Assembly: GCF_009765965.1 (NCBI RefSeq)
Contig: NZ_LMUL01000011.1
Location: forward strand, 79,173 to 143,172
DNA: 64,000 nt
Direction of reading: 5' to 3'
Origin: Caulobacter sp. S45
GTDB taxonomy: Bacteria; Pseudomonadota; Alphaproteobacteria; Caulobacterales; Caulobacteraceae
Positions 7,565 to 30,430 of the stretch are shown one piece after another. Made by a program: the position numbers and the translations under genes. Numbering within the stretch: the stretch's first letter is position 1; each line of letters starts with the position of its first letter. Under the pieces are notes generated by a model. It searched no databases. It had not been told where the DNA came from and worked only from the letters and a program-made list of their open reading frames with translations.

Positions 7565-7699
7565 GAACGTCCCTCGAGAGATTGGGACGGTAACTATCGG
7601 AAGGCTATGAACTCACCGTAATTATATAGACTTAATCAGACAACAACATCCAATGTTAAAACACTATTGCAATCCCGGGCTCATGTTTTGTTAACCAGC

Positions 7700-7933: not shown

Positions 7934-8308
7934 GGCGTTGACTCCGCTCCCGATCGTTTGCTCGCAAGTCGCGGGACCGGGGTCTTGGCTATAACGCGGC
8001 GCGCCGCGATCTGGCTCCGGAACGCGCAGCACTTCGGGCCTAGGTCCCATAAGAGCCGGAAGGCGGATTGGGCGCGATCGCGTCACACCCCGTCGCCGAC
8101 CGATCCCAAACGCAGTTGCCATTTAGTCACGCTAGTCCCGCCCAAAATGAGCGACCGCCCGATCGGCCGGGTCGCAATTCCTCCGGCTTTATATTCCGCA
8201 GGCTGGACCGTGACGCTCTGATCGAGGCTCTCGATCAAAGGGTTCGGTTCCAACGACGCGAGTTCAGCGCGGGCTGCTTGTATCGCGTCTCACCCGTCTA
8301 AAGGGAAT
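7934..8308. other. Gap without a supported gene
   Basis: No supported gene. It presumably carries the promoter of the small protein at 7700-7933 and the 3' trailer of the SGNH gene. Confidence 0.4.
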
Positions 8309-9385: not shown

Positions 9386-9399
9386 CGGTGAACCGCCCG

Positions 9400-10869: not shown

Positions 10870-10940
10870 TAAAAATCGCCCTTTCCTCGCGGCGCACTGG
10901 ATCGATCATGCGAATTCGAGCCGCTGTCGGCGGGCCTTAA

Positions 10941-12302: not shown

Positions 12303-12314
12303 CGTCTCACAGCC

Positions 12315-14075
12315 TCAGGGCGTTAGGGCCGGCTGGTCACGCCGGACGACGGGAGTGGGGGGCTGGGGAGCAAGGTCGTTCATGACCTGCTCTCTTGGCC
12401 CAAACGCGGCTACTTGTCCGCCCCTGATGATCATCAGCTTGTCTACGCCGCCTAGGATTCCGGCGCGGTGAGCCACGACGAACACCGTCACGCCTTTGGC
12501 TTTCAGCCGCGCAAGGGTTTGTCCGAGCAACATCTCGCCCTCTGCATCCATATGCGAATTCGGCTCGTCGAGGATCACCACTCGCGGCTCATCAAAGAGC
12601 GCACGAGCCAGTGCGATGCGTTGCAACTGGCCAGCGGACAGCCCGCGCCCAGCCGCCCCCAGCATGGTCTCGTAGCCTTCCGGCAGCCGCAGGATCATCT
12701 GGTGAGCGCCACAACTTTCGGCGGCCGCGACCACCATGGCGTCCAGCGCGTCCTGGTCGGTCTCAAGATATCCGCGGAAACGGGCGATGTTTTCGCGCAC
12801 GGTGCCCTGAAACAGGTTCGAGTCCTGGGGAAGAAAGCCGATGTGGCGGCCGAGCTGCTCCTGATCCCAATCGCTCATGTCCGCCCCGTCGATCCGTACG
12901 TGGCCGCGATCTGGCGACTGGGCGCCGGCGAGCACACGCATCAGGGTGGACTTGCCTGCGCCGCTGGGGCCCACTACGCCGACGATCTCGCCAGGCAGGA
13001 CGATGAAGCTGGCGCCTGAGAGGATCGGGGCGGTCCGGGCTGCATCGAGCACAGTGACCTGCTCGACCTCCAAAAGCGCCCGCGGCGTCGGCAGGCGGGT
13101 CTTGCGTCCCAGCGCGCCGACCCGATCAAGAAGGATGTCGAGCGCTTTGTACGCCCCCCGGGCGCTGACAATTCCCTTCCAAGCCCCCAGCACCTGTTCG
13201 ATCGGACTTAGCGCACGGCCGATCAGCAAGGAGGCGGCGAAGATCGCGCCCCCCGAGAGCTGACGCTCCACTGCGAGATAGGCGCCGACGCCGAGGGCCA
13301 AAGATTGAAGCGCCAGCCGAAAAAATCGAGTGGCGGCCATGTATCCTCCAGCGGCGAAGCTAGCCTCGGCCTGAAGGGAGATGCTCGTGAAGCGATCGTC
13401 TAAATGACGTTGGGTGATCGCTTCGCGCATACCCAGAGCCCGCACGACGTCGGAGGCGGCGACGGACTGTTCGTGGGAGAAGTAGGCCCGAGACGCCGCA
13501 TCATTGGCGGTCTGCAGGCGCGCCTTGGTGGCCCGCTCGTTTAACAGCGTCAGCCCGATCACGATTACAGATCCCGCGATGGCGAGACACCCGAGCACCC
13601 AATGCAACATGAAGCAGACCAGGATATAGACGGGCGTCCAGGGCGCATCGAACAGGGCGATGATCCCCGCACCGGTAAGCGTGGCGCGCAGGGTGTCGAA
13701 ATCGCGCAGAGCGCGAGACGACCGCTCTCCCCCCTCGACCGACCTGAGGGTCGCACGAATGACCGGCGCGGCCAGCACATGGTCCAGCTTGGCGCTCGCG
13801 CGCACGAGCAGCCGCGACCGAACGAGGTCGAGCAGGGTGAGGGTGGCGAGCGAAAACAGCAGAATCACCGTCAAGAAGGCGAGCGTCGCCACGCCTCGCG
13901 TCGGTATGACTCGGTCATACACCTGCAGCATGTAGAGCGTCGGCGCCAGATAGAGTATATTTAGCAGCGCGCTAAATAATCCGGCAAATACCAAGTGCGA
14001 TCTACAGGCTCGTAATGCGCCCTTCAGAGACAATGCGATCGGCGCGCGCCGATCCGCCACAGATATTGCCGCCAT
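12315..14075 (-). CDS. Type I secretion ABC transporter/permease, PrsD/PrtD family
   Basis: This inner-membrane half transporter (about 586 residues) powers type I secretion. The N-terminal membrane domain has about six helices (for example FSALLNILYLAPTLYMLQVYDRV). The ATPase domain has Walker A GPSGAGKST near residue 370, signature LSAGQLQRIALARAL and Walker B VVILDEPNSHMD. The LSAGQ signature and DEPNSxMD are typical of the PrtD/PrsD branch. There is no N-terminal C39 peptidase domain, so cargo is not cleaved. An in-frame GTG at 14084 is an alternative start. It forms an operon with the HlyD gene and is the probable exporter of the RTX glycanase. Confidence 0.93.
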   Translation of the reverse strand: MAAISVADRRAPIALSLKGALRACRSHLVFAGLFSALLNILYLAPTLYMLQVYDRVIPTRGVATLAFLTVILLFSLATLTLLDLVRSRLLVRASAKLDHVLAAPVIRATLRSVEGGERSSRALRDFDTLRATLTGAGIIALFDAPWTPVYILVCFMLHWVLGCLAIAGSVIVIGLTLLNERATKARLQTANDAASRAYFSHEQSVAASDVVRALGMREAITQRHLDDRFTSISLQAEASFAAGGYMAATRFFRLALQSLALGVGAYLAVERQLSGGAIFAASLLIGRALSPIEQVLGAWKGIVSARGAYKALDILLDRVGALGRKTRLPTPRALLEVEQVTVLDAARTAPILSGASFIVLPGEIVGVVGPSGAGKSTLMRVLAGAQSPDRGHVRIDGADMSDWDQEQLGRHIGFLPQDSNLFQGTVRENIARFRGYLETDQDALDAMVVAAAESCGAHQMILRLPEGYETMLGAAGRGLSAGQLQRIALARALFDEPRVVILDEPNSHMDAEGEMLLGQTLARLKAKGVTVFVVAHRAGILGGVDKLMIIRGGQVAAFGPREQVMNDLAPQPPTPVVRRDQPALTP

Positions 14076-14256
14076 GAACGCCACTCGCTATCTCGAGAGC
14101 CGATTGGAAATGCGAACGCGATGCTGGGGTTCGGCAAGGCCGACCGCTTCGGCGAGACAAGGTGTCGCTTTGCTCGATGAAACCGCGACGATCACCTTGG
14201 AGCCTCCACAGCGTTAACCGTTCGACCATGCGCGAAACCGGTTAAGGCGGCGTGTA

Positions 14257-16903: not shown

Positions 16904-17164
16904 TTACTCGGGATCTCGGATCAAGACCACCCCACAGTGGGGGAGGGCGCGCCAGACAACTCGCGCCGCGATCCGTTCCCCAGAGCTAAGCTCCAACTCG
17001 AATGCGTCCGGTACGGCGTCTTCTCGCCTCAGCAATAGGCCTGCGCCGCCTGAACTGATGTCTACGACAACGCAGTCCAGCGAGCCATGGGGCGACCATA
17101 TCCGCGCGCTCGCCCTTGACCGCTTACGCGGGAAGCTGCGCCTTTCCCGGCCAGAATTCAGCAC
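16904..17164 (-). CDS. PilZ-domain protein, probable c-di-GMP receptor
   Basis: An 86-residue single-domain PilZ protein starting at GTG. Both signature elements of c-di-GMP binding are visible: the Arg-rich loop ERRSFPRKRSRA near the N-terminus (RxxxR type) and VVDISSGGAGLLL (D/NxSxxG). A strand with RVVWRALPHCGVVLI closes the barrel. PilZ proteins often link c-di-GMP levels to EPS production, surface adhesion or motility. It lies 102 bases after the lasso nucleotidyltransferase on the same strand, so it may be co-transcribed with the lasso genes, though it could simply be an EPS regulator. Confidence 0.85.
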   Translation of the reverse strand: MLNSGRERRSFPRKRSRASARIWSPHGSLDCVVVDISSGGAGLLLRREDAVPDAFELELSSGERIAARVVWRALPHCGVVLIRDPE

Positions 17165-17266: not shown

Positions 17267-18304
17267 CTATTCACCTTCACCCGCGTTGTATATTCGGCGG
17301 CAGATCTCCGAAGACAACGCCCAACCCACCTCCACCGGATATTGGAACTTGGCGTCGCACAGCGCCCACAGCAGCGCCCGTCGTTTGGGCCAGCCGACGT
17401 CGTCGGCGGCGGGGGTGAGAAGCATCGAAAGCAGGCCGCGATCGGAAATAGCATCTAGGACGACGCGCGGCGTCTTTGGAAACTGGACACAGATCCCGAA
17501 CATGAGCGCAGCGGCTCTCAACCCGAGGTGAAGGGTGCTCGACAGCCGTTGTTCGATCGCCGCGACGAAGAGGCCTTGCAATTCCAGTGGGCTCAGGGCG
17601 AGCAGCTGAGCGGCGATGTCGGCGGCGTAGCCGCCTGCGGGTTCTCGATGCACCAGCGCCTTGGCGACACTGACACAGGCGAGGAGTATGGCGTTTATTT
17701 TCGAAAGGATCGGGACCTCGATTTCGCCCAACCGCACAAGATGAGGTTCAGTCAAGAAGAGCGCTGGCCGACGCGGAGTCGGACAGCCGGGCTGCTGAGT
17801 GCGATGGTGCAGATCGACCGTGGCGAGCGAGACATTGTCGGTCAGCAAGTGTTGCTCGCCCAGGAAGATGCGCCACCAGGGCGATGCGCACGGCTCTGGG
17901 AGCTCGTAGCCTGCGCCTAGGACGCAGTTTCGGGCCGAGACGAAGACCTCGTTCGACACGAGAACGTCGACATCCGACGAGGGCTTGGCGAAGAAGTCGC
18001 CGTACGCCAGTTGCTGAGCGAGCGGGCCTTTAATTACGACAAAGGGAATCGAAGCCGCACTGAGCATCGGCGCCAGCGTGCGAATCGTCAGCAGGTTTCT
18101 TGAATTGAATTGAAGCGCGAGGGTTCGGCTCTCCGCTACGATTGTCTTCAGCCGGTCGGGGAGCGTCATGTCGCGCGCCAAGCCGCGCGCCATCAAAACG
18201 GCCAACCGGTTATGCCGGAGCAGATCGCCCAGCGCCTCCTGGCCATGGGTGTCGACCACCGCCAAGTCAACGCGCGCAGGCGTCTTGAGCAGCGCCGCCC
18301 TCAC
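17267..18304 (-). CDS. Lasso-cluster nucleotidyltransferase family protein
   Basis: A 345-residue protein of the nucleotidyltransferase family often found with lasso peptide genes (PF14907-like). The fold motifs are IPFVVIKGPLAQQLAYG (KG near residue 92) and SSDVDVLV (metal-binding Asp111 and Asp113). In related loci such as pseudomycoidin, I recall this protein acting with the kinase in tailoring the peptide's C-terminal region; its exact reaction here is inference. The only canonical start is GTG at 18304, but the frame stays open and protein-like (PLVVTAP, ISLALELVRAALL) up to 18450 with no ATG, GTG or TTG. GGAGGTAAGGGGAG lies just upstream of that extension, so the true start may be non-canonical or hidden by an error. 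Confidence 0.8.
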   Translation of the reverse strand: MRAALLKTPARVDLAVVDTHGQEALGDLLRHNRLAVLMARGLARDMTLPDRLKTIVAESRTLALQFNSRNLLTIRTLAPMLSAASIPFVVIKGPLAQQLAYGDFFAKPSSDVDVLVSNEVFVSARNCVLGAGYELPEPCASPWWRIFLGEQHLLTDNVSLATVDLHHRTQQPGCPTPRRPALFLTEPHLVRLGEIEVPILSKINAILLACVSVAKALVHREPAGGYAADIAAQLLALSPLELQGLFVAAIEQRLSSTLHLGLRAAALMFGICVQFPKTPRVVLDAISDRGLLSMLLTPAADDVGWPKRRALLWALCDAKFQYPVEVGWALSSEICRRIYNAGEGE

Positions 18305-18712
18305 GAGTTCAAGGGCGAGGCTTATCCCAGGGTCCAGGTCTAATACCGCAGCGCCCGACGGCGCGGTTACAACCAGCGGGCGCGCAATGCGGCGCTGCGG
18401 CGACAGCGAAGCTGAGATGGCGATGTCTGATGTCGAGCTCAGCTGATTCTCCCCTTACCTCCAGAAACGCTGCACCGCTTACGATCCGAACGCGTCTGAA
18501 ACCTTCAAGATCCATGCCAGCGCGCAGCGCGCGCCCGTCGCGCTCCCCCTTGCCCCATTTTGGCGAGGTCTAGGTCCAGTCAACCCCGCGTCGACAACGT
18601 TTAAGCTGACCTGGCGTTTAGCTTGCCTCGTCGCCGGAGGTCAGCAGGGTCGGGAAACGACTGACCGGAATAGCTGAAATGACCGGGACCGGCATGCTAG
18701 CCGTCGAGACCT
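18305..18712. other. Gap between lasso kinase and nucleotidyltransferase genes
   Basis: About 145 bases at the left of this gap (18305-18450) are in frame with the nucleotidyltransferase and look coding. The remaining 260 bases show no gene and could hold a secondary promoter. A GC-rich alternating run (gcgcgcagcgcgcgc, near 18520) is present. Confidence 0.4.
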
Positions 18713-19633
18713 TTAAAGTAACAAATCCGACCTAATGATTGCTGAGGCCTCCCTAATTCTTTCGAGGTCATCCGCTAAACGCAGTCGACGGACGGACCCT
18801 GATGAAGAAAGTCCGGCGAACGCCTTTAGCTGGCGGGTGGCTTCAGCGGGGCCTCGGGGACGGGTGGGGAAGCGGCTCATGTAGGAGAAGCGCATGAGCG
18901 ATTTCAATGCGTCCGCCGGCGCCATAGGGGCCACGGCAGGTTCGCCTCCGCGATCCAGGACAAAAAAACGGCCTGGATGGGCCGTTTCATTGGAAAAGCC
19001 CGCTGTCAGCCGACGAAGCTGCTTTGGAAAATCGGGAACCGGATCCTCCAGCGCAACACTGTTTTGAACGCGAAAGCTGGCGGGCAGGGCGCGATCGACC
19101 TTCATCTGGGGAAAGCCGGGGACGACGACTGGACTCTGTGGATGAGAGACGTCGATTGCAACGATATCGTCAGCGATTAGACGGTGGCCCATCGCAACGA
19201 GAGCGGCCGCCGTTGTGGATTTGCCCGCCCCCTTGTCGCCCATGAAGACCACCGCTTGGTCGCCAAACCCGACGGCGCTGGCATGCAAAACAACCAAGCC
19301 CCGCAGGTGAAGGAGAAGAGCAAGTACAGGACCGATCAGCGGTAGGCGCAGTAGGCTATCTTCAACCCCCGCCTCGCGCATGACGTCGATACGGTTGACG
19401 CCATAGATCGTGAACGCGCCCACTGTCGGCCACGCAAGATGCTGCACGTCCTCACCGAATGTGAATTGCGTGCCCGCCTCGGCATCTAAGGATGCAAATC
19501 CCTCTAGGACAGAGATGGTAAGATCTGCCGAGTTCTCGCCGGTGTAGATTTCGAATTCGGGCATGGGGAGCTCGGACGCGACGACCATACCATAGGCGAA
19601 ATAACGGGCTAACGGCGTCACTTGATCGCTCAT
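18713..19633 (-). CDS. Lasso peptide kinase, HPr kinase-like
   Basis: A protein of about 306 residues related to the C-terminal domain of HPr kinase/phosphorylase. Numbered from a TTG two codons upstream, His119 lies in VVLHASAVG, the P-loop is GDKGAGKST (134-142), and LIADDIVAI carries the Asp157/Asp158 pair. In paeninodin-type loci such kinases phosphorylate the C-terminal Ser of the lasso precursor. The precursor here ends in Phe-Ser, which fits. The gene follows the cyclase by about 60 bases on the same strand. The start is either ATG 19633 or TTG 19639, with AAGG upstream of both. Confidence 0.87.
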   Translation of the reverse strand: MSDQVTPLARYFAYGMVVASELPMPEFEIYTGENSADLTISVLEGFASLDAEAGTQFTFGEDVQHLAWPTVGAFTIYGVNRIDVMREAGVEDSLLRLPLIGPVLALLLHLRGLVVLHASAVGFGDQAVVFMGDKGAGKSTTAAALVAMGHRLIADDIVAIDVSHPQSPVVVPGFPQMKVDRALPASFRVQNSVALEDPVPDFPKQLRRLTAGFSNETAHPGRFFVLDRGGEPAVAPMAPADALKSLMRFSYMSRFPTRPRGPAEATRQLKAFAGLSSSGSVRRLRLADDLERIREASAIIRSDLLL

Positions 19634-19692
19634 ATGCAATTCGACCTTGATAGAAGTTACAAACGACCAGTGACGTCGGCCTGCGCGATCAC

Positions 19693-21627
19693 CTAAGCCA
19701 CGGAAGGCGCCGCCTGCATCGACGATTCAGCCGAACGAAATGTCTCGTTGCGCCGCCATAGGGCTATGGCGGCAGTGCGCCACACCATTTGTACGTCTCC
19801 CCCGTCGGCCTTCACCCCTGCTTTTCGAACGCGATCATAGGCGCCGCGCGCTACTTCTAGGTTAATCCAGCCGCTCATTTCTTCGCTGTCTTCTAAGATC
19901 AAAAGATCCAGCAATGACTGATTGTACGTGATCAGCCCGTTGACGATGTGGGGTCCGAAATCGAACTTGTCGCGCCGCCAGCGGATCGCTTCAGGCAAGA
20001 CCCCGGCCAACCCCATACGCATGACGTAGCGCCCCCAACCGCGCCGAAGCTTTTCGTCCGAAGGCAGGGCAAGGCAAAATTCCACTAACCGCTTGTCCCA
20101 GAACGGATAGCGGCACTCCACGCCGGCCCGCGCCGCAACCACGTCCAGAACTTCGAAGGCATAGGCGTTCAGGTTGGATGTCATCAACGCGAGATGCCGC
20201 TCGCCTTCAGACATCATCATGTCGGGCTCAAGCGACGCCCACCGCCGCCACCGTGTGGCACTGTCGGTCGCCGAGGCAAGGCGGCCGGCGGCCAAGACAG
20301 GTGCGGGGCGGGGAGTTCCAACGTCGGACGAGCTGTTGGATGATTTCAAGCGCCTCTTGATCCGGCGAGCCACGTCGCCGACGCGACTGTAGCGCTTGAA
20401 ATAGTTCCAAACGACCAGGGTCGCGTTGCCGCCGTAGGTCGCGGCCAAGCCGTTCACTTCCATCCAGAGCCGCAACCACTTGGAAGCGATCGCAAGCTCC
20501 ACCAGGCGGCCATAGCCGAACGACACGACCTCGTCGCCGCCGTGCCCATCCAATAAGACGTTCACGCCCTGCATCGCTGCGGCGTGGTGGATGCGCCGGT
20601 TGATCATCAAACTGGGCGCGAAGAACGGGCATCCCTGTTCACCGAGAACCTGTTCAAACCCATCGAATGGATCGTGATGATCCGATGGGACGAATACAGG
20701 TGTTATCGCGCCGCCATCCAGAGCCGCCTCGATGAACGGTCGTTCATTCCACTGAGGCGTTTCGTCAAAGACAGCTGAGAAGGTGATCAGGGGGGGGCTA
20801 TGGGACTGGCTCAGACATTCAGCCGCCACCCTGGCGATGGAGGAGGAATCCAGCCCACCGCTCAACATCGCTCCAAGCTTTTTGGAAGCCGGAAGGCGAC
20901 AGGCGACACTCTGGGTGAAAAGCCGCCGAAACTCCGCATAGGGCGCAGCCGGGGTCTCGGGGGCGGCGAGCTTTAATCCCCAATATCGCCGTAATGACAC
21001 GCCATCCGGCGCCACCGTCAAACAATGCGCCGGGGCTAGACGTTTGATGGTTTTATATAGGGTCGATTCCTGGTCGCACGCCGCGCCGGTGATGAAGTCG
21101 GCCAGCCAAGCTTCGTCCACTGCACTGGCGGCGCCGACGACGCGCGCGAGTGCGGCCACTTCAGAGGAAAACAGAAACTCGGTTTCTGTTACGGTGTAAT
21201 AAAACGGTTTAACGCCGAAATGGTCGCGCGCGCAGAACAGCGTCCCTTTACGCTCGTCCCAGACGGCGAACGCGAAATCGCCGAGCAGATAGTCGGTGCA
21301 ACCCTCGCTCCAAGTCTGATACGCAGCAAGAATAAGCTCGGCGTCGGACATCGCCAGCTCGTCGACGTCGAGTCGCTGCGAGAGCTCCGCTCGATTGTCT
21401 AGTCGCACGTCCGCCGTCAGCACGAGCTCGGATTTTACGAGCGGTTGGGGAGCCGAGCGATGCCCAGGAAGTGTGGCCAACAGGTGATGGCCAAGCTCAG
21501 CCCGGCCCGAAGTCCAGCGGCCGGTTCCGTCAGGCCCCCGGTGGCTCAAGGCGGACTGAAGCCGAGCCATCGCGGCCGAGGCGTCGCCGCTTCGACTAAG
21601 GTCAATCCGACCAAAGACGCCACTCAC
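19693..21627 (-). CDS. Lasso peptide cyclase, asparagine synthetase-like (protein C)
   Basis: A 644-residue enzyme that would adenylate the Asp side chain of the core peptide and close the macrolactam ring. The N-terminal half resembles a glutamine amidotransferase domain, but residue 2 is Ser (MSGVFG) instead of catalytic Cys, so ammonia release from Gln is not expected, as befits a lasso cyclase. The synthetase half has the PP-loop SGGLDSS (256-262) and a C-terminal block with ECRYPFWDKRLVEFCLALP, typical of asparagine synthetase B. Start is GTG, overlapping the stop of the leader peptidase gene as GTGA, which implies translational coupling. Confidence 0.92.
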   Translation of the reverse strand: MSGVFGRIDLSRSGDASAAMARLQSALSHRGPDGTGRWTSGRAELGHHLLATLPGHRSAPQPLVKSELVLTADVRLDNRAELSQRLDVDELAMSDAELILAAYQTWSEGCTDYLLGDFAFAVWDERKGTLFCARDHFGVKPFYYTVTETEFLFSSEVAALARVVGAASAVDEAWLADFITGAACDQESTLYKTIKRLAPAHCLTVAPDGVSLRRYWGLKLAAPETPAAPYAEFRRLFTQSVACRLPASKKLGAMLSGGLDSSSIARVAAECLSQSHSPPLITFSAVFDETPQWNERPFIEAALDGGAITPVFVPSDHHDPFDGFEQVLGEQGCPFFAPSLMINRRIHHAAAMQGVNVLLDGHGGDEVVSFGYGRLVELAIASKWLRLWMEVNGLAATYGGNATLVVWNYFKRYSRVGDVARRIKRRLKSSNSSSDVGTPRPAPVLAAGRLASATDSATRWRRWASLEPDMMMSEGERHLALMTSNLNAYAFEVLDVVAARAGVECRYPFWDKRLVEFCLALPSDEKLRRGWGRYVMRMGLAGVLPEAIRWRRDKFDFGPHIVNGLITYNQSLLDLLILEDSEEMSGWINLEVARGAYDRVRKAGVKADGGDVQMVWRTAAIALWRRNETFRSAESSMQAAPSVA

Positions 21628-22055
21628 GTCGATCGCGGCGCCAGATCCGCGAGTTGGGAAAAGCGGGCGAGGTCGCTGGGCGTGCCGCCAAGGATGACCA
21701 CATCACCGCTGATGAGCCACGCATGGGCCGAAAACTCGCCTGATGCGCCGCGGGCCGCGCCGATGCGCATCTCCGTGCGGTAGCCTCGGCAGGCGAGCAG
21801 ATACTGTCCGGCTAGAGCCTGGGTCAGGCAGGTGGCGCGAGGCACCAAACGCGCGGCAGCGGAGACTCCCCAGTGAACGCGCCGCATCTTCCAGGCGGGA
21901 GGAGCCGCGCTCGCACGGGCGGGCATTAGCTTGCGAATGTGGCGATACGGCGCGAGAAACAGCGCCATGCGGAAGGCTGCGACGGTGAGTAGGCAACCCG
22001 TCAGAAAAACGGCGTCACCGACGCTAGGGATGCGAAGCTTACGAGGCGGGTGCAT
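21624..22055 (-). CDS. Lasso leader peptidase, transglutaminase-like (protein B2)
   Basis: A 143-residue cysteine peptidase of the transglutaminase-like superfamily that removes the leader from the precursor. The expected triad is visible: Cys76 in PRATCLTQALAG, His111 in FSAHAWL and Asp118 in SGDVVILGG. An N-terminal helical stretch (AVFLTGCLLTVAAFRMALFL) precedes it, as in many B2 proteins. It overlaps the PqqD-like gene by 17 bases and the cyclase by 4, so B1, B2 and C are one tightly coupled unit. It would act together with the separately encoded recognition protein. Confidence 0.92.
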   Translation of the reverse strand: MHPPRKLRIPSVGDAVFLTGCLLTVAAFRMALFLAPYRHIRKLMPARASAAPPAWKMRRVHWGVSAAARLVPRATCLTQALAGQYLLACRGYRTEMRIGAARGASGEFSAHAWLISGDVVILGGTPSDLARFSQLADLAPRST

Positions 22056-22353
22056 CCTCGATCCTCAACAAATTGGCGTCGGCCAACTTCTCCAGCCAAG
22101 CGGTGACATCGCTGGCGCATTGCGGACGGCTCACAGCGTAGTGCTGATGGACCTTGTCGATGAGATCGTGCGTGGTGCAGGGCGTTGCGAGCGCAGCCCA
22201 CATAAAGGCCCCAGCCTCGTTCAAGCTGAAGTAGGTGCTGGAACGCAGATCCAGTAACGCCGCGCCGTCCGCCAACTCGCAGGAGACGACCTCCGGATCA
22301 GCCGTGATCAGGCCGGAGAGTTGGCTGCCGCCGTCGATATCAACCTTGCTCAA
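22039..22353 (-). CDS. Lasso precursor recognition protein, PqqD-like RRE (protein B1)
   Basis: A 104-residue PqqD-like protein. In proteobacterial and other split-B lasso systems this winged-helix RiPP recognition element binds the leader's YxxP motif and delivers it to B2. Typical elements are VSCELADGAALLDLRSSTYFSLNEAGAFMW and a helical C-terminus (VTAWLEKLADANLLRI). It starts at TTG with GAGG 7 bases upstream. It begins about 29 bases beyond the T-tract of the terminator following the precursor gene, so its expression depends on read-through. Confidence 0.9.
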   Translation of the reverse strand: MSKVDIDGGSQLSGLITADPEVVSCELADGAALLDLRSSTYFSLNEAGAFMWAALATPCTTHDLIDKVHQHYAVSRPQCASDVTAWLEKLADANLLRIEDAPAS

Positions 22354-22381
22354 ACCGAAGCCTCATCGTCCCGATAGTTCG

Positions 22382-22422
22382 AAAAACGCAAAAAGCGGCG
22401 CAGGACTTATGTCCCGCGCCGC
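22382..22422 (-). terminator. Strong intrinsic terminator/attenuator after the lasso precursor gene
   Basis: On the minus strand GCGGCGCGGGAC-ATAA-GTCCTGCGCCGC forms a 12-bp stem (one G.U pair, 4-base loop) at 22395-22422, followed by TTTTTGCGTTTTT. It lies 25 bases after the precursor stop codon and ahead of the B1 gene. This would give much more precursor transcript than enzyme transcript. Confidence 0.88.
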
Positions 22423-22447
22423 GATCTATCCAACGGCAAAGCGACCC

Positions 22448-22609
22448 TTAGGAGAAGATCGCCGGCTTGCCGCCGGTGAAGGGCACGGGTTGGCCGGCGG
22501 CGAAATTGCCGTCGAACTTCGTGCCGTTGACGCCAGCTTGAGTGATGGCTTCGAAGGTGCCGACCTTCTCGAAGGACGGAGCTTGGTAAGCGCTACGGAT
22601 GTCTTGCAT
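22448..22609 (-). CDS. Lasso peptide precursor (protein A)
   Basis: A 53-residue precursor with GGAGG 5 bases before the ATG. The leader (residues 1-24, MQDIRSAYQAPSFEKVG then TFEAITQ) fits the consensus YxxPxLxxxGxxxxxTx: Tyr8, Pro11, Phe13 in place of Leu, Gly17 and Thr23 at position -2. The core then begins AGVNGTKFD, giving a predicted ring from Ala1 to Asp9, the same first residue and ring size as paeninodin (AGPGTSTPD). A 20-residue tail (GNFAAGQPVPFTGGKPAIFS) follows and ends in Ser, the likely kinase target. A 29-residue core is longer than most lasso peptides. An 8-residue ring starting at Gly2 is a less likely alternative. Confidence 0.9.
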   Translation of the reverse strand: MQDIRSAYQAPSFEKVGTFEAITQAGVNGTKFDGNFAAGQPVPFTGGKPAIFS

Positions 22610-22963
22610 TTGAGCCTCCACGTGGGTTCACGTCTCCGGTTAAGAGAGCGTTAAGCCTCTGTGTCGGAGATGCTGCTCCGAGTCAAGTGTTGTGGCCTCG
22701 GATCTATAGTTTTTCACTCTACACGGGAATATTAAATATTAAGTGTTGGGATGCTATAGAGAATGCGGATCGAATGGTCGCACCCAAGCGTTCGGTCGGA
22801 CCTTCGGGCTAGGTTACAGCAAACCGGCGCCCCGACCGACTCGGCGGTAGCTTGGGCCGAAGAGAGGGCGTTGTCGCCGGCAGCCCTGAACATGGGTTCG
22901 CAAGGCGGCTAGTCACAATACCGACGCCCGCGAAGGGACGTTTTCAAGCATGGGCAAGGCGAT
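22610..22963. promoter_or_regulatory. Divergent promoter region of the lasso locus
   Basis: The 354 bases between the precursor gene (minus) and the exporter gene (plus) must hold both promoters. An AT-rich island at about 22705-22745 includes the perfect odd palindrome AATATTAAATATT (22728-22740), a possible operator or promoter core. A TATAGA (-10-like) hexamer lies nearby on the minus strand. I cannot assign exact promoters. Confidence 0.6.
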
Positions 22964-24847
22964 ATGCGTCTCGGACTGACAAATAGCCGTTTGGAGGGAT
23001 CGGGAGCGCTGCTGTTAGCGAGTTACGTTGTCCGCCTCGCGGGCCGCAAAGTTACCTATGCCCTGCTGTTTTTGTTGCTAGGGAGCCTTACGGAAGGGGC
23101 GTCGGTCCTGCTTCTGATCCCAATGCTGCAGCTGGCCGCGCCCCATCAACATACCGTCGCGGTTGGAGTGAGCCTTCTCGGCAACATTGCGCCCCGGTTG
23201 GCCGTGGGAAAGGCAGGCTTGGTCCCCGTCCTGGTCGCTTTTATCCTGCTTACCTTTGGTCAGGTATTTTTCTCGCGATTTCGCACAATATACACGGCGG
23301 ACTTGCTGTATGGCGTGGTAAATCATATGCGCGTGTCTTTGTTCGAGAGCATAACTCGCGCAAAGTGGACGTACCTACTCAACACCCGCTCGTCCGATTT
23401 AAACCACGCCCTCACCGCCGATATCGACCGTGTTCAGATGGCTGTCGGGCAAATCCTCGCGTTCGTCCAGGCCCTGGTCATTCTATTAGTCTATACGTTG
23501 GTGTGTCTGCTCATCTCGCCAGGCATGACCGTGTTTGCGGCGGTCGTCGGGGGAGTCGGATTGGTGGCGCTTCGCCCGATCCGCAACCGTGCGGCCAGTT
23601 ATGGGGCGACCCTGACAGGGCAGCGACAGGAGCAGTATCGAATCGTATCGGAGTTCCTATCTGGGATGAAGATCGCGAGAAGCTTCAACGCCGAGTCCCG
23701 CTACGTGCATCGGCTGGACGCGACCCTGACCGGAATGCGCAAAGACGCATTACGTTTCATCCGCATATCGACGACCGGCAACATTGTTTTCCAGGTCACA
23801 AGCGCAATCGGTGCCGCGGCGTTCATCTTTATCGCCACGCGGGTGTTCGAGTTGCCGCTCGCAAAAATTGTCGTGCTGATCTTCCTGTTCATGCGCATAT
23901 CGCCCCGCTTCAACTCGCTCCAGTCCAGCATGCAGGACGCGATGTCCAACGCGGGAGCCTTCCAAGCGATGCACGCCCTGCAGCTGAGCTGCGACGCTCA
24001 GCGAGAAGAGGCGCCGAGCGGCGCTGGGCGGGAGCGACGTTTGGTTGGGGCGGTCCGTTTCGACAATGTCTCCTTCCATTACAGCTCTGGCGACGGGACC
24101 AGCGTTGGGACCTTGGCCAAGGTTTCTTTTATGATCCCAGCCAGCTGCATCACCGCGCTGATCGGACCGTCGGGAAGCGGTAAGAGCACGATCGCAGACT
24201 TGGTGCTTGGACTTTTGCAGCCGACAGGAGGCACGATCTGGACCGACACCCGCAGGCTGGGTCCGGCCAACCGTGAAGCCTGGCGAGATCAGGTCGCTTA
24301 TGTTCCCCAGGATGTCTTCCTCTTGCATGACACCATCGCCGAAAATCTCAGGCTCGCCGTTCCAGACGCGACGCCGGCGATGATGTGGGAGGCGCTTGAG
24401 GCCGCCCAGGCGGCTTCGATCGTGCGACGCCTAGACGGAGAGCTTGAGGCTGTGGTCGGCGATCGCGGCATTCGGCTTTCCGGTGGAGAGCGTCAACGGA
24501 TCGCGCTCGCTCGGGGCCTTCTGCGCAAGCCGGAGCTGCTCATCCTCGACGAAGCGACGAGCGCTTTGGATTGGGAGAGCCAAACCCTCATCGCGCGGTC
24601 AATCGAGAGCCTACGCGGCTCGATGACCGTGATTACGATCGCCCACCGTGCGTCTATGATCGCCATGGCGGACTGGGTGGTGTCGATCGACGATGGGAAA
24701 GTTGTCGAAACGGGACCCTACAATCAATTGCGCGACACGCCCGGGAGCTATTTGAGCCGCCTCATTGCCGGCGAGCACGACATAGGAAGCGCTCCGGGCG
24801 CTGGGGACTTGGAGGACGATGGGCAGTTGAGCACCTCCGGGGGGTGA
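22964..24847 (+). CDS. Lasso peptide ABC exporter (protein D)
   Basis: A 627-residue ABC transporter with fused membrane and ATPase domains that would export the mature lasso peptide and give self-immunity. The membrane half spans about residues 15-330. The ATPase domain carries Walker A GPSGSGKST (401-409), signature LSGGERQ (505-511) and Walker B LLILDEATSALD (525-536). AAGG lies 4 bases before the ATG at 22964. It is transcribed divergently from the biosynthetic genes, whereas many lasso operons place it last in the same direction. A general lipid or EPS exporter role is the alternative, but the location argues for the lasso peptide. Confidence 0.88.
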   Translation: MRLGLTNSRLEGSGALLLASYVVRLAGRKVTYALLFLLLGSLTEGASVLLLIPMLQLAAPHQHTVAVGVSLLGNIAPRLAVGKAGLVPVLVAFILLTFGQVFFSRFRTIYTADLLYGVVNHMRVSLFESITRAKWTYLLNTRSSDLNHALTADIDRVQMAVGQILAFVQALVILLVYTLVCLLISPGMTVFAAVVGGVGLVALRPIRNRAASYGATLTGQRQEQYRIVSEFLSGMKIARSFNAESRYVHRLDATLTGMRKDALRFIRISTTGNIVFQVTSAIGAAAFIFIATRVFELPLAKIVVLIFLFMRISPRFNSLQSSMQDAMSNAGAFQAMHALQLSCDAQREEAPSGAGRERRLVGAVRFDNVSFHYSSGDGTSVGTLAKVSFMIPASCITALIGPSGSGKSTIADLVLGLLQPTGGTIWTDTRRLGPANREAWRDQVAYVPQDVFLLHDTIAENLRLAVPDATPAMMWEALEAAQAASIVRRLDGELEAVVGDRGIRLSGGERQRIALARGLLRKPELLILDEATSALDWESQTLIARSIESLRGSMTVITIAHRASMIAMADWVVSIDDGKVVETGPYNQLRDTPGSYLSRLIAGEHDIGSAPGAGDLEDDGQLSTSGG

Positions 24848-24920: not shown

Positions 24921-25772
24921 CTATCGTGACGGCAGGACGCCGAAGCGCCGCTCCATCGCGCGGATTTGGACATCATTGGCGTTGTCGACGACGTTTTTGG
25001 AGTGAAGGCTCTCCTTCTGCGACCGCGGCCAATTCAAAATTCGAAATGGCTCGGCCGTCGTCCTGTAGCGTGCGTCGGCCAATCGCCCCATGAAGTACAA
25101 CCAAACGTCATCTGCGCTGGGACAAAGGCTGAGGAAGGTTTCTTCGTCCATAACCTCGCGGGCCAGGCTGTTAGGCGGGTACATCACCCCCCCGACCCCC
25201 GTGGGAAAGAGGATTTGGGAGCCCTCCGCACACGAGACGTTCCAGCGCCATTTAGCGTAGGGCGACATGGCTCCGCTTAGCTCGAAGGCAGGCATATGGC
25301 CGCGGTGACAGGCGATGTGGGGATTTATTGGATCGACAGCGTCCACCAAGGTCGAGAGCCAATTGGGCGGATAGTACACGTCGTCGTCGGCGGTCACGAT
25401 ATAGGCGCTTGGGAATGCGGCTAAGGCAGGGATGATCTTCTTGTAGCTGCGCAAATCAGCTGTCGCCTTAATCTCGAGGTTCCAACTCTCGAGGCGTCGA
25501 ACCTCCTTCGGCAGCGCGTCCATATCCTGATTGGCGATCCACAGAACCACGTGGTCCGGCTGAACCGTCTGCAGCAGCAACGACCTCAAAGTAAGGTCCA
25601 ACGTCGCGAACCGAGGCGGATACGAGGTAAGTGAGACCACCAGCTGACCATCCGGGAACCTAGCGGTCTCGGATTTCTGTGAGGCTCGGGACACAGCGAT
25701 CGCCGCCGCCCGCGCGCGCACCCCGTTCGATAGCCGATAGGCGGCCTCGCGAGCCCAGGTGGAATTGCTCAT
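24921..25772 (-). CDS. Glycosyltransferase (GT-A fold)
   Basis: A 283-residue probable glycosyltransferase. The core has VVSLTSYPPRFATLDLTLRSLLLQ, then DHVVLWIANQDMD, and the metal-binding motif IVTADDDVYYPPNWL (DDD). These features are shared by EPS and capsule glycosyltransferases with a short GT2-like domain. It lies between the lasso exporter (convergent) and the Wzc-like gene (same strand, 149 bases upstream), so EPS assembly is the simplest role. Glycosylation of the lasso peptide cannot be excluded from position alone. Confidence 0.75.
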   Translation of the reverse strand: MSNSTWAREAAYRLSNGVRARAAAIAVSRASQKSETARFPDGQLVVSLTSYPPRFATLDLTLRSLLLQTVQPDHVVLWIANQDMDALPKEVRRLESWNLEIKATADLRSYKKIIPALAAFPSAYIVTADDDVYYPPNWLSTLVDAVDPINPHIACHRGHMPAFELSGAMSPYAKWRWNVSCAEGSQILFPTGVGGVMYPPNSLAREVMDEETFLSLCPSADDVWLYFMGRLADARYRTTAEPFRILNWPRSQKESLHSKNVVDNANDVQIRAMERRFGVLPSR

Positions 25773-25921: not shown

Positions 25922-28150
25922 TTAGTTGACGTAATAGTTGCGAACGGCACCGTAATAGTAAGCGCTATCGCCGTAGCCAGATCGCCTTTGCTCGCGCAAA
26001 TTCACCTGGGTGAGGGCGACCCCGGCGATACGCGCGCCGGCGTTGTGAAGCGCGGTTAGAGCATTCTCGACAGCTTGGCTGGGCGTGCGGCTCCACTGCA
26101 CAACGAACAGAACTGCGTCCGCCCGCGCCGACAGCACGCGCGCGTCAGCCACGGCCAAGGTTGGCGGCGTGTCCAAAATCACATGGTCGAAGCTCTGGGT
26201 CAGCTGGGCTAGAAGCTGCGCCATTTCGCGAGTGCTGAATAGATCCTTCTGCCCGACCGGAGCGCTCGACGCGGGAAGGACCCACCCTCCGCTCGCTTCG
26301 TCATGCACCAGAGCATCCTTCAGGCTCGCCTTGCCTTCGAGAACCTCGACGATTCCGACCTCCGTCCGTCCGGTAAATTGCGTCGCGCCGCGGCGGCGCA
26401 GGTCGCAGTCGATCAGAACGGTTTTGGCCCCCGCCAAGGCCATCGTGCGCATCAGGCAGAACGAAGTGACGCTCTTGCCCTCGGCGGGCAGCGAGGAGGT
26501 GACAGCGATCACCTTCGGTGCCGCTGAGCTGTCGCTCGACAACAGCAGGAAGGCGCGCAGGTTTCGGAAACTTTCTGCAAAGCTCGAGAGCGGGCGAGCG
26601 ATCAGATAGTCCTGAGGCTCCATCTTGCGCTCCTTGCCCTTGAGCCGGCCCGTCGACGCCGGCGTCGGCAGCCCCCCCGCATAGGGCAAGCCCAGCTTCT
26701 CGGTCACATCGGTGCCGGTCCTGATCGCTGAGTCCAAGATCTCCAGCATAGCGACGGCGATGACGCCGCACATCGCGCCGAAAACCGCGCCGAAAACGAT
26801 CGCCAATTTGATTTTCGGAGACGACGGAGTGGTCGGAACGGTTGCGGGGGAGAACAGCCGCGCCGTCGGCTGCTGAATGCCCTGTTCAGCTGCGGTCTCC
26901 TTCGACCGGTTCAGAAAGGCTTCGTAGATGGCGCGATTGGCGTCGGCCTTGCGCTGCAGTTCGTTGAGCTCCACCTGCGCTTGCGTGTTGGACGCTAACG
27001 ACCCCTTGGCGCCGCCTTGGCTTTGAGTGAGCGAAGCAAGGCGTTGCTCGGCGACGGCGACCTGGGCGCGCAGGTTGGAGCGAATGCTCTGCGTTTCGAT
27101 CTCGATATTATGTTGAACGGCGCGAAGGCGGTTGTTCGCCTTTTGCACATCGGGATGCATCGGGCCGTATCGCGTGCTCAGTTCGGCCAGATTGCGGTTT
27201 GCGTCGGCTTCCTGGGCGCGAAGATTGCGGATGACGTCGGATTCCTCAACCGCGGTGACGTCGCTTCCTCCACCGCCCGTGCTCAATTGCGCCACGGCGG
27301 TGCTTTCGGCGGCCTTCTTTTCGGCCACATCGGCGCGCGCCTGAGCGATCTCCTGGCTTAATGTAGAGACCTCCTGCTCAGCCAACGTCGCGCCTTCCGC
27401 GCTTAGGAGGCCGTGGGCCACTTTGTACTGCTGGACCTGCGCGTCAGCCGCCTGCAGATCGTTCTGGAGCTTGGTCAGCCGCTCGGTAAGCCATTGATTG
27501 GCGGTGCGGGTCGCATCGAATTTCGTGCTCAACTGAGTGTCGATGAAGGCTTGGCCATAGCTATTGGCGATCCTCGCGGCCTTGGCGGGATCGGTCGACG
27601 AAGCGACGATCGTGATCACGTAGGTCAATCCGGCGCGCTGCACCCGGACCGCCGATTGCAACGTGCTGACCACCCGCTCCTTAATCAAAGGGGAAATCGT
27701 GGCCGGCGTAGGCAGCACGGCTGGAAGTCTCATGATCTTTTTATTATGCGGATCTCGAACGAGAATCGCCGAGTCGAACTCGGGATCCGCATACAGGTTC
27801 AGTTTGTCGGCCACATAAGCCGCGATCGACGGTGAGTTAAGCACCTCAACCTCGGTGTCGACGACCGAGGAATCTGGGGGAAGCGCTTCGCTAACGTCCT
27901 GATCCTTAATGATCTGCTGGACGGCAGGCTGCACCTCCAGGCTCGCCATCGCCGAGTAAACTCGAGTGGCGCGCGAGGACATGTAGGTCGTCAATGCGAC
28001 CACGGCGAGGGCGACGGCGAGGAACACCTTCCAGTGCCGCAGGAAAGCCGAGACCACACGACGCGGGTCGAAGGGCAGCAGGTCTCCGCCGCCGTGCTGA
28101 GCGGCCGCGTGGTGCGAGCGTTGTTGGGAAAGGCCGCTAGTCTCAACCAT
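25922..28150 (-). CDS. Wzc/ExoP-like polysaccharide co-polymerase with tyrosine autokinase domain
   Basis: An inner-membrane protein of about 742 residues that controls EPS chain length and export. An N-terminal membrane helix (VFLAVALAVVALTTYM) leads to a Wzz domain, a long coiled-coil region (about 190-430) and a second helix (LAIVFGAVFGAMCGVIAVAM). The cytoplasmic BY-kinase domain has Walker A SSLPAEGKSV, Walker A' VLIDCDLRRRG and Walker B HVILDTPP. The tail carries six Tyr in its last 17 residues (YGDSAYYYGAVRNYYVN), the expected autophosphorylation cluster. GAGGA lies 5 bases before the ATG at 28150. No low-molecular-weight tyrosine phosphatase gene is seen in the window. Confidence 0.93.
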   Translation of the reverse strand: MVETSGLSQQRSHHAAAQHGGGDLLPFDPRRVVSAFLRHWKVFLAVALAVVALTTYMSSRATRVYSAMASLEVQPAVQQIIKDQDVSEALPPDSSVVDTEVEVLNSPSIAAYVADKLNLYADPEFDSAILVRDPHNKKIMRLPAVLPTPATISPLIKERVVSTLQSAVRVQRAGLTYVITIVASSTDPAKAARIANSYGQAFIDTQLSTKFDATRTANQWLTERLTKLQNDLQAADAQVQQYKVAHGLLSAEGATLAEQEVSTLSQEIAQARADVAEKKAAESTAVAQLSTGGGGSDVTAVEESDVIRNLRAQEADANRNLAELSTRYGPMHPDVQKANNRLRAVQHNIEIETQSIRSNLRAQVAVAEQRLASLTQSQGGAKGSLASNTQAQVELNELQRKADANRAIYEAFLNRSKETAAEQGIQQPTARLFSPATVPTTPSSPKIKLAIVFGAVFGAMCGVIAVAMLEILDSAIRTGTDVTEKLGLPYAGGLPTPASTGRLKGKERKMEPQDYLIARPLSSFAESFRNLRAFLLLSSDSSAAPKVIAVTSSLPAEGKSVTSFCLMRTMALAGAKTVLIDCDLRRRGATQFTGRTEVGIVEVLEGKASLKDALVHDEASGGWVLPASSAPVGQKDLFSTREMAQLLAQLTQSFDHVILDTPPTLAVADARVLSARADAVLFVVQWSRTPSQAVENALTALHNAGARIAGVALTQVNLREQRRSGYGDSAYYYGAVRNYYVN

Positions 28151-28189
28151 CTTAGTCCTCACAGACTTGCAGGGTGCGTCGAGGAAAAT

Positions 28190-29482
28190 TCATCTTTGCA
28201 GAACTATCGCGAAGGCGAGCGTATCGATATTGAAATCCGTTCCGCGCGCCGCCCCTGTCGTAATCAACTTCAGCAGTGTATAAGTCAGATCGAAATTGAC
28301 TGATCGGTTCATCTTGTAGACTACCCCCGCGGTCGCGCCGATGCGACGATCCAGGCGGTCTAAGGATCCAAACGTATCGTATTCCATACTCCCGCTCGCA
28401 GTCAGAATGACATTTCTAAGCAGCTCGTGATCGACTTTTAGCGTCGCGCTGTTGGCCAAGTAGGCTGGGGTCAGTATCAGGCCGCTATTGTCGACGTCAC
28501 GAGAGAGCTTCAGGCTTACAGTTGTCAGTTCCGTAGGGAAGTACTGAAGGTTGCCGTGCACGGTCGGTCCGGACATATCCGGGGTGACCCGATCGACGAA
28601 ATGTTGATCTAGATATCCGACCTCGATCTTTCCCCTTACAAGCCGGGTGAGATCGAAGCTCGCCCCGCCAAGGAGTTCGTATCCCGAGCTTCCTGGATCG
28701 TAAGGCGCGACCGGCGGCTTGATATCATAATCCCGATCGTTTCCGGTCAGGGCGACGTATACAGAGGTGTTTGGGCTTAACGCATAGTCAGCTTGGCCGC
28801 GAAGCTTCAGCTCGAGCACGTTTCGCTGATTCTCTTCCAGAGTTGCGCCGGTAAACGTCGTTGAATTTGTGTAATCGTAATGATCAAACGAACCGTCGAG
28901 AGTGGCTCGGAATCGGCTAAAATCTCTATAGCCGTTCAGGTCCCCGGCGATGACGCTGTATTGCACTGGGGTGCGCGCCGAAGTCGGAGCCGTTTCGTCA
29001 GAGCGGGGCTCCACGTCTTGTTGGTAATCCAAATTGCCGCTAACTTTACTGGCGTGATCCAAGTCGAGACGTCCAAACCCTTGGAGCTCGTAGCTGGTCG
29101 TGCTTTCTTCGCTGAAGCTTAGATATTGCTGCCGATCTATCTTCGCTTTTAGCAAGACAAGGTTTCGCGACCAGTTTGACTGTGCTGTAACTTGAAGTTG
29201 TTCGTCGACGATCCCCGCAGCGCTGTTCCCATTCGCAGTTGCGAAAATATTATCGTCATCGGTGATGGTCGAGGTCAACTTTGGAAAGACCAAGAAACTT
29301 CCGACTTGAAGGCCGAGAGGATCATACTCCGGCTGCGGGCGGTCGGTGACGGCGATATTGCGATCGCGTCGGAAAATATCCTGATCTTGCGCATGGGCGG
29401 TCTTGGCGGCGCACAAGGCGAGCAGCGCCACATTTATCGCCAGGAGGCAGCCTTGGCGATTAACAAAATTTCCCGTCAGCAT
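28190..29482 (-). CDS. Outer-membrane beta-barrel protein of the EPS cluster
   Basis: A predicted outer-membrane protein of about 430 residues. The start at 29482 gives a signal peptide (LAINVALLALCAAKTAHAQ). The mature part begins with PEYDPLGLQVGSFLVFPKL and continues as alternating strands rich in Tyr, Asp and Asn. It ends in TLAFAIVLQR. This matches the beta-barrel proteins (BBP2-like) often encoded beside Wza and Wzc in alphaproteobacterial EPS operons. A frame from 29653 would add 57 Arg-rich residues before the signal peptide and is unlikely. It lies between wza-like and wzc-like genes and may support export or anchoring of the polymer. Confidence 0.8.
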   Translation of the reverse strand: MLTGNFVNRQGCLLAINVALLALCAAKTAHAQDQDIFRRDRNIAVTDRPQPEYDPLGLQVGSFLVFPKLTSTITDDDNIFATANGNSAAGIVDEQLQVTAQSNWSRNLVLLKAKIDRQQYLSFSEESTTSYELQGFGRLDLDHASKVSGNLDYQQDVEPRSDETAPTSARTPVQYSVIAGDLNGYRDFSRFRATLDGSFDHYDYTNSTTFTGATLEENQRNVLELKLRGQADYALSPNTSVYVALTGNDRDYDIKPPVAPYDPGSSGYELLGGASFDLTRLVRGKIEVGYLDQHFVDRVTPDMSGPTVHGNLQYFPTELTTVSLKLSRDVDNSGLILTPAYLANSATLKVDHELLRNVILTASGSMEYDTFGSLDRLDRRIGATAGVVYKMNRSVNFDLTYTLLKLITTGAARGTDFNIDTLAFAIVLQR

Positions 29483-29676
29483 CGGCCGCGAAAACCTGCG
29501 CGGCGGCGCAAGCGCTCGCGCGACGACCGCGAGGCCTGTCGCTTCGCGACATCTGAAGCCGCCCCGTCTCACCCGATGGCGATAGCTTGCCAATAGTCCC
29601 CCTTGCCGTGCCCCCCTGCGAATTGCAGCGCTGCGCTCGGACGTCCTGTTCATGCCGTGCTGGGTCTGCGATCCGA

Positions 29677-30249
29677 TCAGAAGAACCGCTCCGTGATTCG
29701 AATGGTGTCGCCGGGTGCGACAAGCGTACCGGTCGTCAGCTTGTATCGGTGCTCGGCCGACTCATTGGCATGTTTGATGAAGACGTTTTTCATGTTCGCC
29801 CGATAGGTGAAGCCCGAAGCCGTGGCCGCAGCGTTGAGAACGGTGAGGCCCGCTGTGTAAGGGTACTCGCCGGGCTTGTTGACTTCTCCGAGTATGTAAT
29901 ATGGGCGATAGGTCAGGACTTCGATGCTGACCCGAGGATCGCGGAGATAGCCTGCGGCCAGCTTATTGGTCAATTGCACCTGCAGCTGCGAAACCGTCTG
30001 TCCGCCTGCTTTCAAGACGCCGATCAGTGGAAAGGAGAGATCGCCGTCGCTGGCGATGGAGAACTCCCCGGTCAGGGTGTCTTCTCCGTAGACGATAATC
30101 CGCACCTTATCGCCCGCCCCGAGTGTGTAGTTCGGCGTCGCAACCGCCTCGGCCGCAGGAGGCTCAGCACTTGCGGCGCCGGTGTAGGCGACGCTACTTA
30201 CGCTCAACAGGCAAAGCGTTGCGGCAATGGACAAGGCCCAGTTTTTCAT
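29677..30249 (-). CDS. Wza-type polysaccharide export protein
   Basis: A 190-residue export protein. A signal peptide (MKNWALSIAATLCLLSVSSVAYTGAASA region) supports the ATG at 30249. The poly_export domain follows: YTLGAGDKVRIIVYGEDTLTG with ISDGDLSFPLIG-like sequence, then a SLBB-like repeat (YYILGEVNKPGEYPY, GLTVLNAAATASG). It ends with APGDTIRITERFF, the usual C-terminus of short Wza/GumB proteins. It is shorter than E. coli Wza (about 380) and lacks the C-terminal outer-membrane helix, so the neighbouring beta-barrel protein may supply the outer-membrane passage. That last point is inference. Confidence 0.9.
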   Translation of the reverse strand: MKNWALSIAATLCLLSVSSVAYTGAASAEPPAAEAVATPNYTLGAGDKVRIIVYGEDTLTGEFSIASDGDLSFPLIGVLKAGGQTVSQLQVQLTNKLAAGYLRDPRVSIEVLTYRPYYILGEVNKPGEYPYTAGLTVLNAAATASGFTYRANMKNVFIKHANESAEHRYKLTTGTLVAPGDTIRITERFF

Positions 30250-30430
30250 TTCGTAGCGACTCGCAAATTGGCATGACAGCATACGTTAGCGCGACTTAAT
30301 GCATCGTTCCGAAGCGCTCCCCGCCCCCCTGGCCGTTGCGCAGCAAACCCTAGCCCGAATGACCGCCTCGAGCCAGGGGCGGCTAAGCGTTACGCATGTT
30401 CACCGGAACGAGGACGGTTTATGGCTCGAC

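Follow-up and report, generated by a model that had tools for sequence, protein, structure and literature searches.

Positions 17267-24847 of the DNA analysed here, a 64,000-nucleotide stretch from Caulobacter sp. S45 (the window), raise two questions: do they encode a complete lasso peptide locus, and what would its product do among exopolysaccharide (EPS) genes? A complete lasso peptide locus within an EPS region is a supported reading, and the best one, of the window. At a probability of roughly 0.68, we favour a kinase-type lasso cluster. In this reading Ser29, the last residue of a 53-residue precursor, is the likely target of the HprK-like kinase; the B2 peptidase with the RRE would remove the 24-residue leader, and the cyclase would link Ala1 to Asp9. 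Decoration of the phosphate is the likely task of the nucleotidyltransferase, and the predicted exporter is the ABC protein, which probably releases the product into the exopolysaccharide around it. Each of these enzymatic steps, their order and the threaded shape of the product we infer from characterised relatives.

Gene set and coding integrity

An earlier note on this DNA had described a complete locus, and indeed the seven genes that it named are all in place: precursor, RRE, B2 peptidase, cyclase, HprK-like kinase, nucleotidyltransferase and ABC exporter. The gene order given there needs one amendment, the exporter being divergent and outside the operon.

22964-24847, plus strand: ABC exporter D, 627 aa, divergent from the operon (PF00005, PF00664)
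22448-22609, minus strand: lasso precursor A, 53 aa (NF033521 above cut-off; GGAGG upstream of the ATG)
22451-22537, minus strand: coding stretch of the core, with C-terminal Ser29 and a predicted Ala1-Asp9 ring
22395-22422, minus strand: terminator-like hairpin between precursor and RRE genes, 12 pairs then TTTTT
22039-22353, minus strand: RRE (B1), PqqD-like, 104 aa (PF05402; TbiB1)
21624-22055, minus strand: leader peptidase B2, 143 aa; Cys76, His111 (NF033537, PF13471)
19693-21627, minus strand: lasso cyclase C, 644 aa (NF033535)
18713-19639, minus strand: HprK-like peptide kinase K, 308 aa, or 306 aa if begun at the ATG at 19633 (PF07475)
17267-18304, minus strand: nucleotidyltransferase N, 345 aa; Asp111, Asp113, Asp164 (PF14907)

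In profile searches four proteins of the locus match NCBIfam lasso models, three of them above cut-off, so that its parts are visible to standard annotation and it can hardly be called previously hidden, as had been claimed. The precursor scores 20.9 bits against NF033521 (lasso_leader_L3, cut-off 19), B2 68.9 bits against NF033537 (cut-off 33) and the cyclase 608 bits against NF033535 (cut-off 525). The RRE reaches 63.3 bits against PF05402 PqqD (GA 23.4) and matches TbiB1 in the PDB (E 9e-9); against the lasso PqqD model NF033530 it scores 53.2 bits, under the cut-off of 70. The kinase (PF07475, 36.1 bits, GA 33.3) and the nucleotidyltransferase (PF14907, 72.4 bits, GA 31.2), which has an NTase fold, complete the set.

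The active-site motifs are kept. The SGGLDS and HGGDE motifs of the Asn-synthetase-like cyclase are found in the window and in 17/17 aligned proteins, and the place of the GATase Cys2 is taken by Ser in the window and by Ser or Thr in 14 of the 17, three being unclear. Cys76 and His111 of B2 are invariant in 17/17 aligned B2 proteins; Asp118, the third residue proposed earlier, is present too, but its catalytic role is unsupported because Asp occupies this position in only 7 of the 17, as counted on the alignment. The Asp triad of the nucleotidyltransferase is kept in 17/17 aligned proteins and likewise in a set of 53. Moreover, His117, Lys138, Asp155 and Asp156 of the kinase (numbered from the ATG) are invariant in 39 sequences, and match the His-Lys-Asp-Asp motif described for lasso kinases (PMC9266682).

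Could the locus nevertheless be decayed or silent, with no peptide made? The nucleotidyltransferase lacks an ATG at its predicted start and lies 408 bp from the kinase gene, and the cyclase found no match in two other genomes of the same genus that were listed, which makes the locus patchy among close relatives. This reading is very unlikely, however, since none of the seven reading frames is interrupted, each matches its family, the motifs are kept, and the nucleotidyltransferase aligns with its relatives from near its GTG.

Precursor, ring and modification site

The precursor consists of a 24-residue leader, MQDIRSAYQAPSFEKVGTFEAITQ, and a 29-residue core, AGVNGTKFDGNFAAGQPVPFTGGKPAIFS. The leader motif proposed earlier, YxxPxLxxxGxxxxxTx, stands in its YxxP and in the Thr at -2, whereas the following part reads YxxPxF and not YxxPxL. 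The sequence marks by which we class a cluster as lasso are present: a YxxP leader with Thr at -2, an Asp or Glu at core position 7-9 (here Asp9), and a B2 peptidase together with an Asn-synthetase-like cyclase.

No relatives of the precursor turned up in a word-based search of 5.77 billion proteins. Kinase and cyclase searches near this family gave 87 related loci (80 kept of 118, plus 7), and the named relatives among them we take to be Alphaproteobacteria. An exporter homologue is present in all 87 and an open precursor in 86, the exception, L096, being cut by a contig end, so the concern raised earlier, that the precursor might be absent or broken where the enzymes are kept, is not borne out. 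Core position 9 is Asp, and the last residue Ser, in 86/86 of these precursors; the former supports the nine-residue Ala1-Asp9 ring that the earlier note had predicted. That relatives with this gene set share the design of the precursor places the locus beyond chance. Cores of the relatives have 24 residues in 83/86 cases, so that the 29-residue core is long as had been remarked, yet less unusual than that remark implied, two relatives having 30.

The 93-nt interval between the precursor and RRE genes folds at -39.7 kcal/mol, and its hairpin is a possible attenuator, the signal being weak, with one such hairpin found against 0.9 expected in shuffles.

With positions counted from either core end, the C-terminal position is the only one that holds Ser or Thr in 87/87 cores, the window's included (38 distinct cores). 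The window combines two marks of a kinase-bearing lasso peptide with a C-terminal phospho-Ser, an HprK-like His-Lys-Asp-Asp motif and Ser as last residue. Experiments have shown that PadeK, ThcoK, SyanK and likewise PsmK, whose precursors end in Ser, phosphorylate that C-terminal Ser, and that addition of a hexose to it needs PsmN (PMC9266682). Phosphorylation of the peptide at its C-terminal Ser is thus likely. Ser29 is likely rather than proven as the kinase site, because position -9 (Thr21 in the window) is nearly as conserved, with Ser or Thr in 86/87 cores, and BsfK modifies Ser3 (PMC10368454). That the target is instead Thr21 or the ring residue Thr6, whose position holds Ser or Thr in 76/87 cores, seems unlikely beside the invariant terminal Ser.

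Since known lasso kinases phosphorylate the C-terminal Ser, the expected mass is likely shifted not by -18 Da only but also by +80 (perhaps +162). A search at -18 Da alone, as suggested before, could miss the product, because both the kinase and the nucleotidyltransferase are expected to act on the peptide, most likely at that Ser. The predicted [M+H]+ is 2834.43 for the cyclised peptide, 2914.39 with phosphate, and 3076.45 with phosphate and hexose.

Exopolysaccharide neighbourhood and distribution

The EPS setting proposed for the locus is real: exopolysaccharide genes were found between about 14 and 56 kb of the window, coding for Wzc, a beta-barrel porin, Wza, Wzy, a sugar transferase, Wzx and several glycosyltransferases, among them the following.

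24921-25772, minus strand: glycosyltransferase-like protein, encoded between the exporter and Wzc genes (PF00535, 23.9 bits, narrowly passing GA 23.3)
25922-28162, minus strand: Wzc/Wzz-like chain-length protein with ATPase domain (PF02706, PF13807, PF13614)
28190-29653, minus strand: beta-barrel porin 2, BBP2_2 (PF10082, 297 bits)
29677-30282, minus strand: Wza-like polysaccharide export protein (PF02563, 81 bits)
30431-31909, minus strand: Wzy-like polymerase/ligase (PF04932)
45316-46074, minus strand: initiating sugar transferase (PF02397)
50854-52371, minus strand: Wzx-like flippase (PF13440)

Counts were made with tblastn, because false frames in GC-rich DNA made some ORF calls wrong. EPS marker genes lie at 84/87 related loci against 1/60 control regions (0/20, 1/20 and 0/20 in three sets), counts obtained with the window's own proteins as queries, which may favour its nearer kin, and from loci that are not 87 independent events, 69 being Mesorhizobium-type (MAGs and L041, L053 and L084 were grouped with Mesorhizobium by their precursors). 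One 20-region set was picked at round coordinates and not by a random number generator, 19 of its regions being taken from five g14 genomes and the other from the window's own genome. By genus-level group the markers occur in 10/12, or 9/11 if group g14 is Brevundimonas. A second draw, taken from the nucleotidyltransferase alignment (two families), gave markers near 9/13 loci, or 8/12 without the repeat of L095, since L228 shares its precursor and is very likely the same record. Going by this gene neighbourhood, with related gene sets adjoining EPS genes in many other bacteria, the slime (exopolysaccharide) layer may be where the peptide acts.

Mobile cargo tends to collect in EPS loci, so that the neighbourhood may not reflect function. 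A lasso peptide secreted as an antimicrobial or a signal, placed by chance in such a hot spot of cargo insertion, is accordingly a possible, though less probable, reading. The spread of the genes is patchy, with the kinase family in 15/385 genomes of the class (E <= 1e-35) and the nucleotidyltransferase in 7/298 and 8/295 (two families), and EPS markers were not found at three Sphingomonas-like loci of the second draw nor at two or more control regions that hold a near-complete cluster of this sort: L119 has exporter, kinase, cyclase, nucleotidyltransferase and B2, and L177 has all of these plus the RRE. Patchiness among the Bacilli relatives has been read as typical of biological-conflict genes (Popov 2026, PMC13381572). 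Against an incidental position, however, EPS markers were found at only 1/20 other lasso-B2 regions of the class, and not at one of these 20, L169, the second lasso locus of the same genome; EPS genes flank the cluster on differing sides in different groups; and in Mesorhizobium the precursor is present in 105/146 genomes and its core is under purifying selection (dN/dS 0.03 for the leader and 0.25 for the core, 65 distinct sequences).

A bolder form of the slime-layer reading makes the peptide a covalent part of the exopolysaccharide, a slime bearing knotted peptides. The kinase and nucleotidyltransferase would activate the C-terminal Ser as a phospho-nucleotide or phospho-sugar handle, by which neighbouring glycosyltransferases or the ligase would attach the lasso to the polymer. 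We regard this as quite improbable; if true, the recurrence of kinase-type clusters at polysaccharide loci in two phyla would mark a single function.

Relation to known lasso systems

The locus itself is a new member, and kinase-type clusters of such design are already known. For Bacilli, PMC13381572 states the roles of kinase-type lasso peptides to be unknown and has already published their link with capsule loci. The EPS tie is seen in Bacilli and also in several groups of Alphaproteobacteria, and is uncommon at other lasso loci, which makes the question of role testable; Mesorhizobium, as culturable legume symbionts, is well suited for this.

Three known types were considered and set aside. 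The paeninodin clade proper has a WxxP leader and is found in Bacillota, whereas the window's leader reads YQAP and its named relatives are presumably Alphaproteobacteria; the linear polyphosphorylated peptides (LPPs) have no cyclase and a SipW-like peptidase, and the window has a cyclase and B2; the Bsf-type has Ile or Val at -2 and Ser or Thr at core position 3, and the window has Thr-2 and Val3.

As described in PMC13381572, the paeninodin/Bacilli clade and the LPPs share with the window an HprK-like kinase, an NTP transferase and an MsbA-like exporter, and their clusters are often sited within loci for capsular polysaccharide. The same source states the paeninodin clade to be restricted to Bacillota, with RREs that favour Trp leaders, unlike the YxxP leader here, and describes the LPPs as lacking a cyclase. 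The bsf cluster of the Gram-negative Bradymonas sediminis has the same A, B1, B2, C, D, K and N set, although with Ile at -2, a C-terminal Asp and a kinase acting on Ser3, where the window's peptide ends in Ser (PMC10368454). Pandonodin also has a long tail, of 18 residues against a predicted 20 here, but its cluster is described with the A-D genes only, to which the window adds a kinase and a nucleotidyltransferase (PMC7549694, PMC9266682). These two genes are shared with pseudomycoidin (psm) of Bacillus pseudomycoides, which carries phosphate and hexose on its C-terminal Ser; the two are likened by description, and the psm host, unlike that of the window, belongs to the Bacillota (PMC9266682). 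SyanA/SyanK of Sphingobium yanoikuyae, likened to the window by description, is also proteobacterial, with a precursor that ends in Ser and a kinase that (poly)phosphorylates SyanA (PMC9266682).

Gene set and precursor design

The seven lasso genes that the earlier note had claimed in the window are all there, with open frames and with profile matches that place each in its own family. Its description of the locus as hidden does not hold, as NCBIfam lasso models exceed their cut-off for the precursor, the B2 peptidase and the cyclase, and the locus is therefore visible to standard annotation. The RRE falls under the cut-off for the lasso PqqD models and far over that for PF05402, with TbiB1 as its top PDB match. 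A terminator-like hairpin lies 3' of the precursor, before the RRE gene, and could be an attenuation signal; the evidence is weak, since one hairpin was found and 0.9 is expected from shuffles. Directly downstream of the nucleotidyltransferase, at 16904-17164, is a small PilZ-domain protein (PF07238), a domain that often senses c-di-GMP.

A word-based protein search with the window precursor returned only itself, and a search of genome contigs gave no match beyond the window. Relatives were gathered with an alignment of 39 kinase homologues (out of 120 listed), which gave 80 loci, the best 80 of 118, and a further seven loci were added from genomes of the same family that have the cyclase, which 8/199 do, the own genome included. 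A second draw with a nucleotidyltransferase alignment matched 7/298 and 8/295 genomes of two families, the two centres included, and added 13 loci, of which L228 is very likely the L095 record again.

According to tblastn, the exporter, cyclase and kinase each occur in all 87 related loci, the RRE and B2 in 86 and the nucleotidyltransferase in 85. The precursor is present in 86, the exception (L096) being truncated by a contig end, and every one has Asp at core position 9 and Ser as last residue. Of their cores, 83 are 24 residues long, two have 30 residues and one has 23. The two ends of the window core align with these, through Asp9 at one end and through Thr -9 and the final Phe-Ser at the other; between Asp9 and Thr -9 it has five residues more than the 24-residue cores. 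The window precursor aligns with those of relatives at up to 45% identity. In the second draw a precursor was found in 11/13 loci, all 11 with Asp9 and final Phe-Ser; the remaining two are L218, which matches the nucleotidyltransferase and kinase but shows no cyclase, and L226, where no precursor was found. It is well supported that the window locus is a new member of the kinase-bearing lasso clusters, whose product is likely a C-terminally phosphorylated peptide, possibly sugar-bearing.

For 65 distinct Mesorhizobium-type precursor genes, uncorrected distances give a leader dN/dS of 0.03 and a core value of 0.25, with 0.40 in the ring and 0.19 in the tail; 105/146 Mesorhizobium genomes carry the precursor, two as weak matches. 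The low ratio and wide presence show that the gene is maintained under selection in Mesorhizobium.

Exopolysaccharide neighbourhood

Profile matches place the window in a Wzx/Wzy-type exopolysaccharide (EPS) locus. Six window proteins (Wzc, BBP2, Wza, Wzy, sugar transferase, Wzx) served as markers in tblastn at 1e-4, and at least one was found in 84/87 related loci, against 0/20 other kinase homologue regions, 1/20 other lasso B2 regions and 0/20 arbitrary regions. Marker-bearing groups are Mesorhizobium, Brevundimonas, the genus-level group g14, Porphyrobacter, Aurantiacibacter, Salinarimonas, Luteovulum, Cereibacter, Pseudoroseicyclus and an alphaproteobacterial bin, that is 10/12 groups, or 9/11 if g14 is Brevundimonas; with groups treated as independent, 10/12 versus 1/60 controls gives a Fisher p of 1e-9. 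The side of the cluster bearing the markers varies between groups, which argues against a single inherited block. In the second draw, markers occur in 9/13 loci (3/6 and 6/7), or 8/12 minus L228; L227, a 6.8-kb contig, has none.

Markers are absent from the Sphingomonas (L074) and Sphingobium (L081) loci. These two, and the Sphingomonas-like loci L215-L217 of the second draw, which also lack markers, have sugar genes but no full export system: ManC adjoins L081, and GT2 and GH16 adjoin L074. A GH16 glycosidase gene lies near the nucleotidyltransferase in L074 and in L215-L217, whose precursors resemble that of L074. GH16 also occurs in the window EPS locus (46111-47040).

Against the EPS reading, near-complete clusters that include the nucleotidyltransferase occur without any EPS marker in L119 and L177, both among the controls. 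They favour the alternative that the placing of the lasso peptide in an EPS locus is incidental; they make this explanation slightly more probable, though still the less likely one, and slightly reduce confidence in the main reading. That reading as a whole, a lasso cluster with C-terminal phosphorylation and export probably into EPS, is given a probability of about 0.68.

Other loci and known systems

Further features, in other regions and in or beside the window EPS region, are as follows.

L169 (own genome, contig C12 400000-419900), 5272-10598: a lasso locus in addition to that of the window, B2 match above cut-off; no EPS markers across the 20-kb region
L169, 10479-10598, minus strand: candidate precursor, 39 aa, Ile at -2, named by eye
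L169, within 5272-10598: fused B, cyclase, peptidase-like protein, named by eye
L218 (G884:C8:5000-24900), about 9700-11100: nucleotidyltransferase within an EPS locus, along with a weak match to the kinase
Window, 10941-14084: type I secretion HlyD- and ABC-like proteins, by eye
Window, 32339-33916: TolC-like outer membrane protein (PF02321)

The cyclase, B1, B2 and exporter are all undetectable in L218, which may be a linear phosphopeptide system. Within 35 kb of one genome, regions L124 and L138 (G514:C3) hold three homologues of the kinase plus matches that resemble the cyclase and B2; they would represent another subfamily of kinase-bearing clusters.

The recurrent EPS neighbourhood is the broader point that deserves follow-up. 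No published account of a lasso-EPS link in Alphaproteobacteria was found in a partial coverage of the literature, with subscription journals mostly outside it. In Bacilli, Popov 2026 (PMC13381572) describes paeninodin-type lasso and LPP clusters as often lying within capsular polysaccharide loci, and their roles as unknown.
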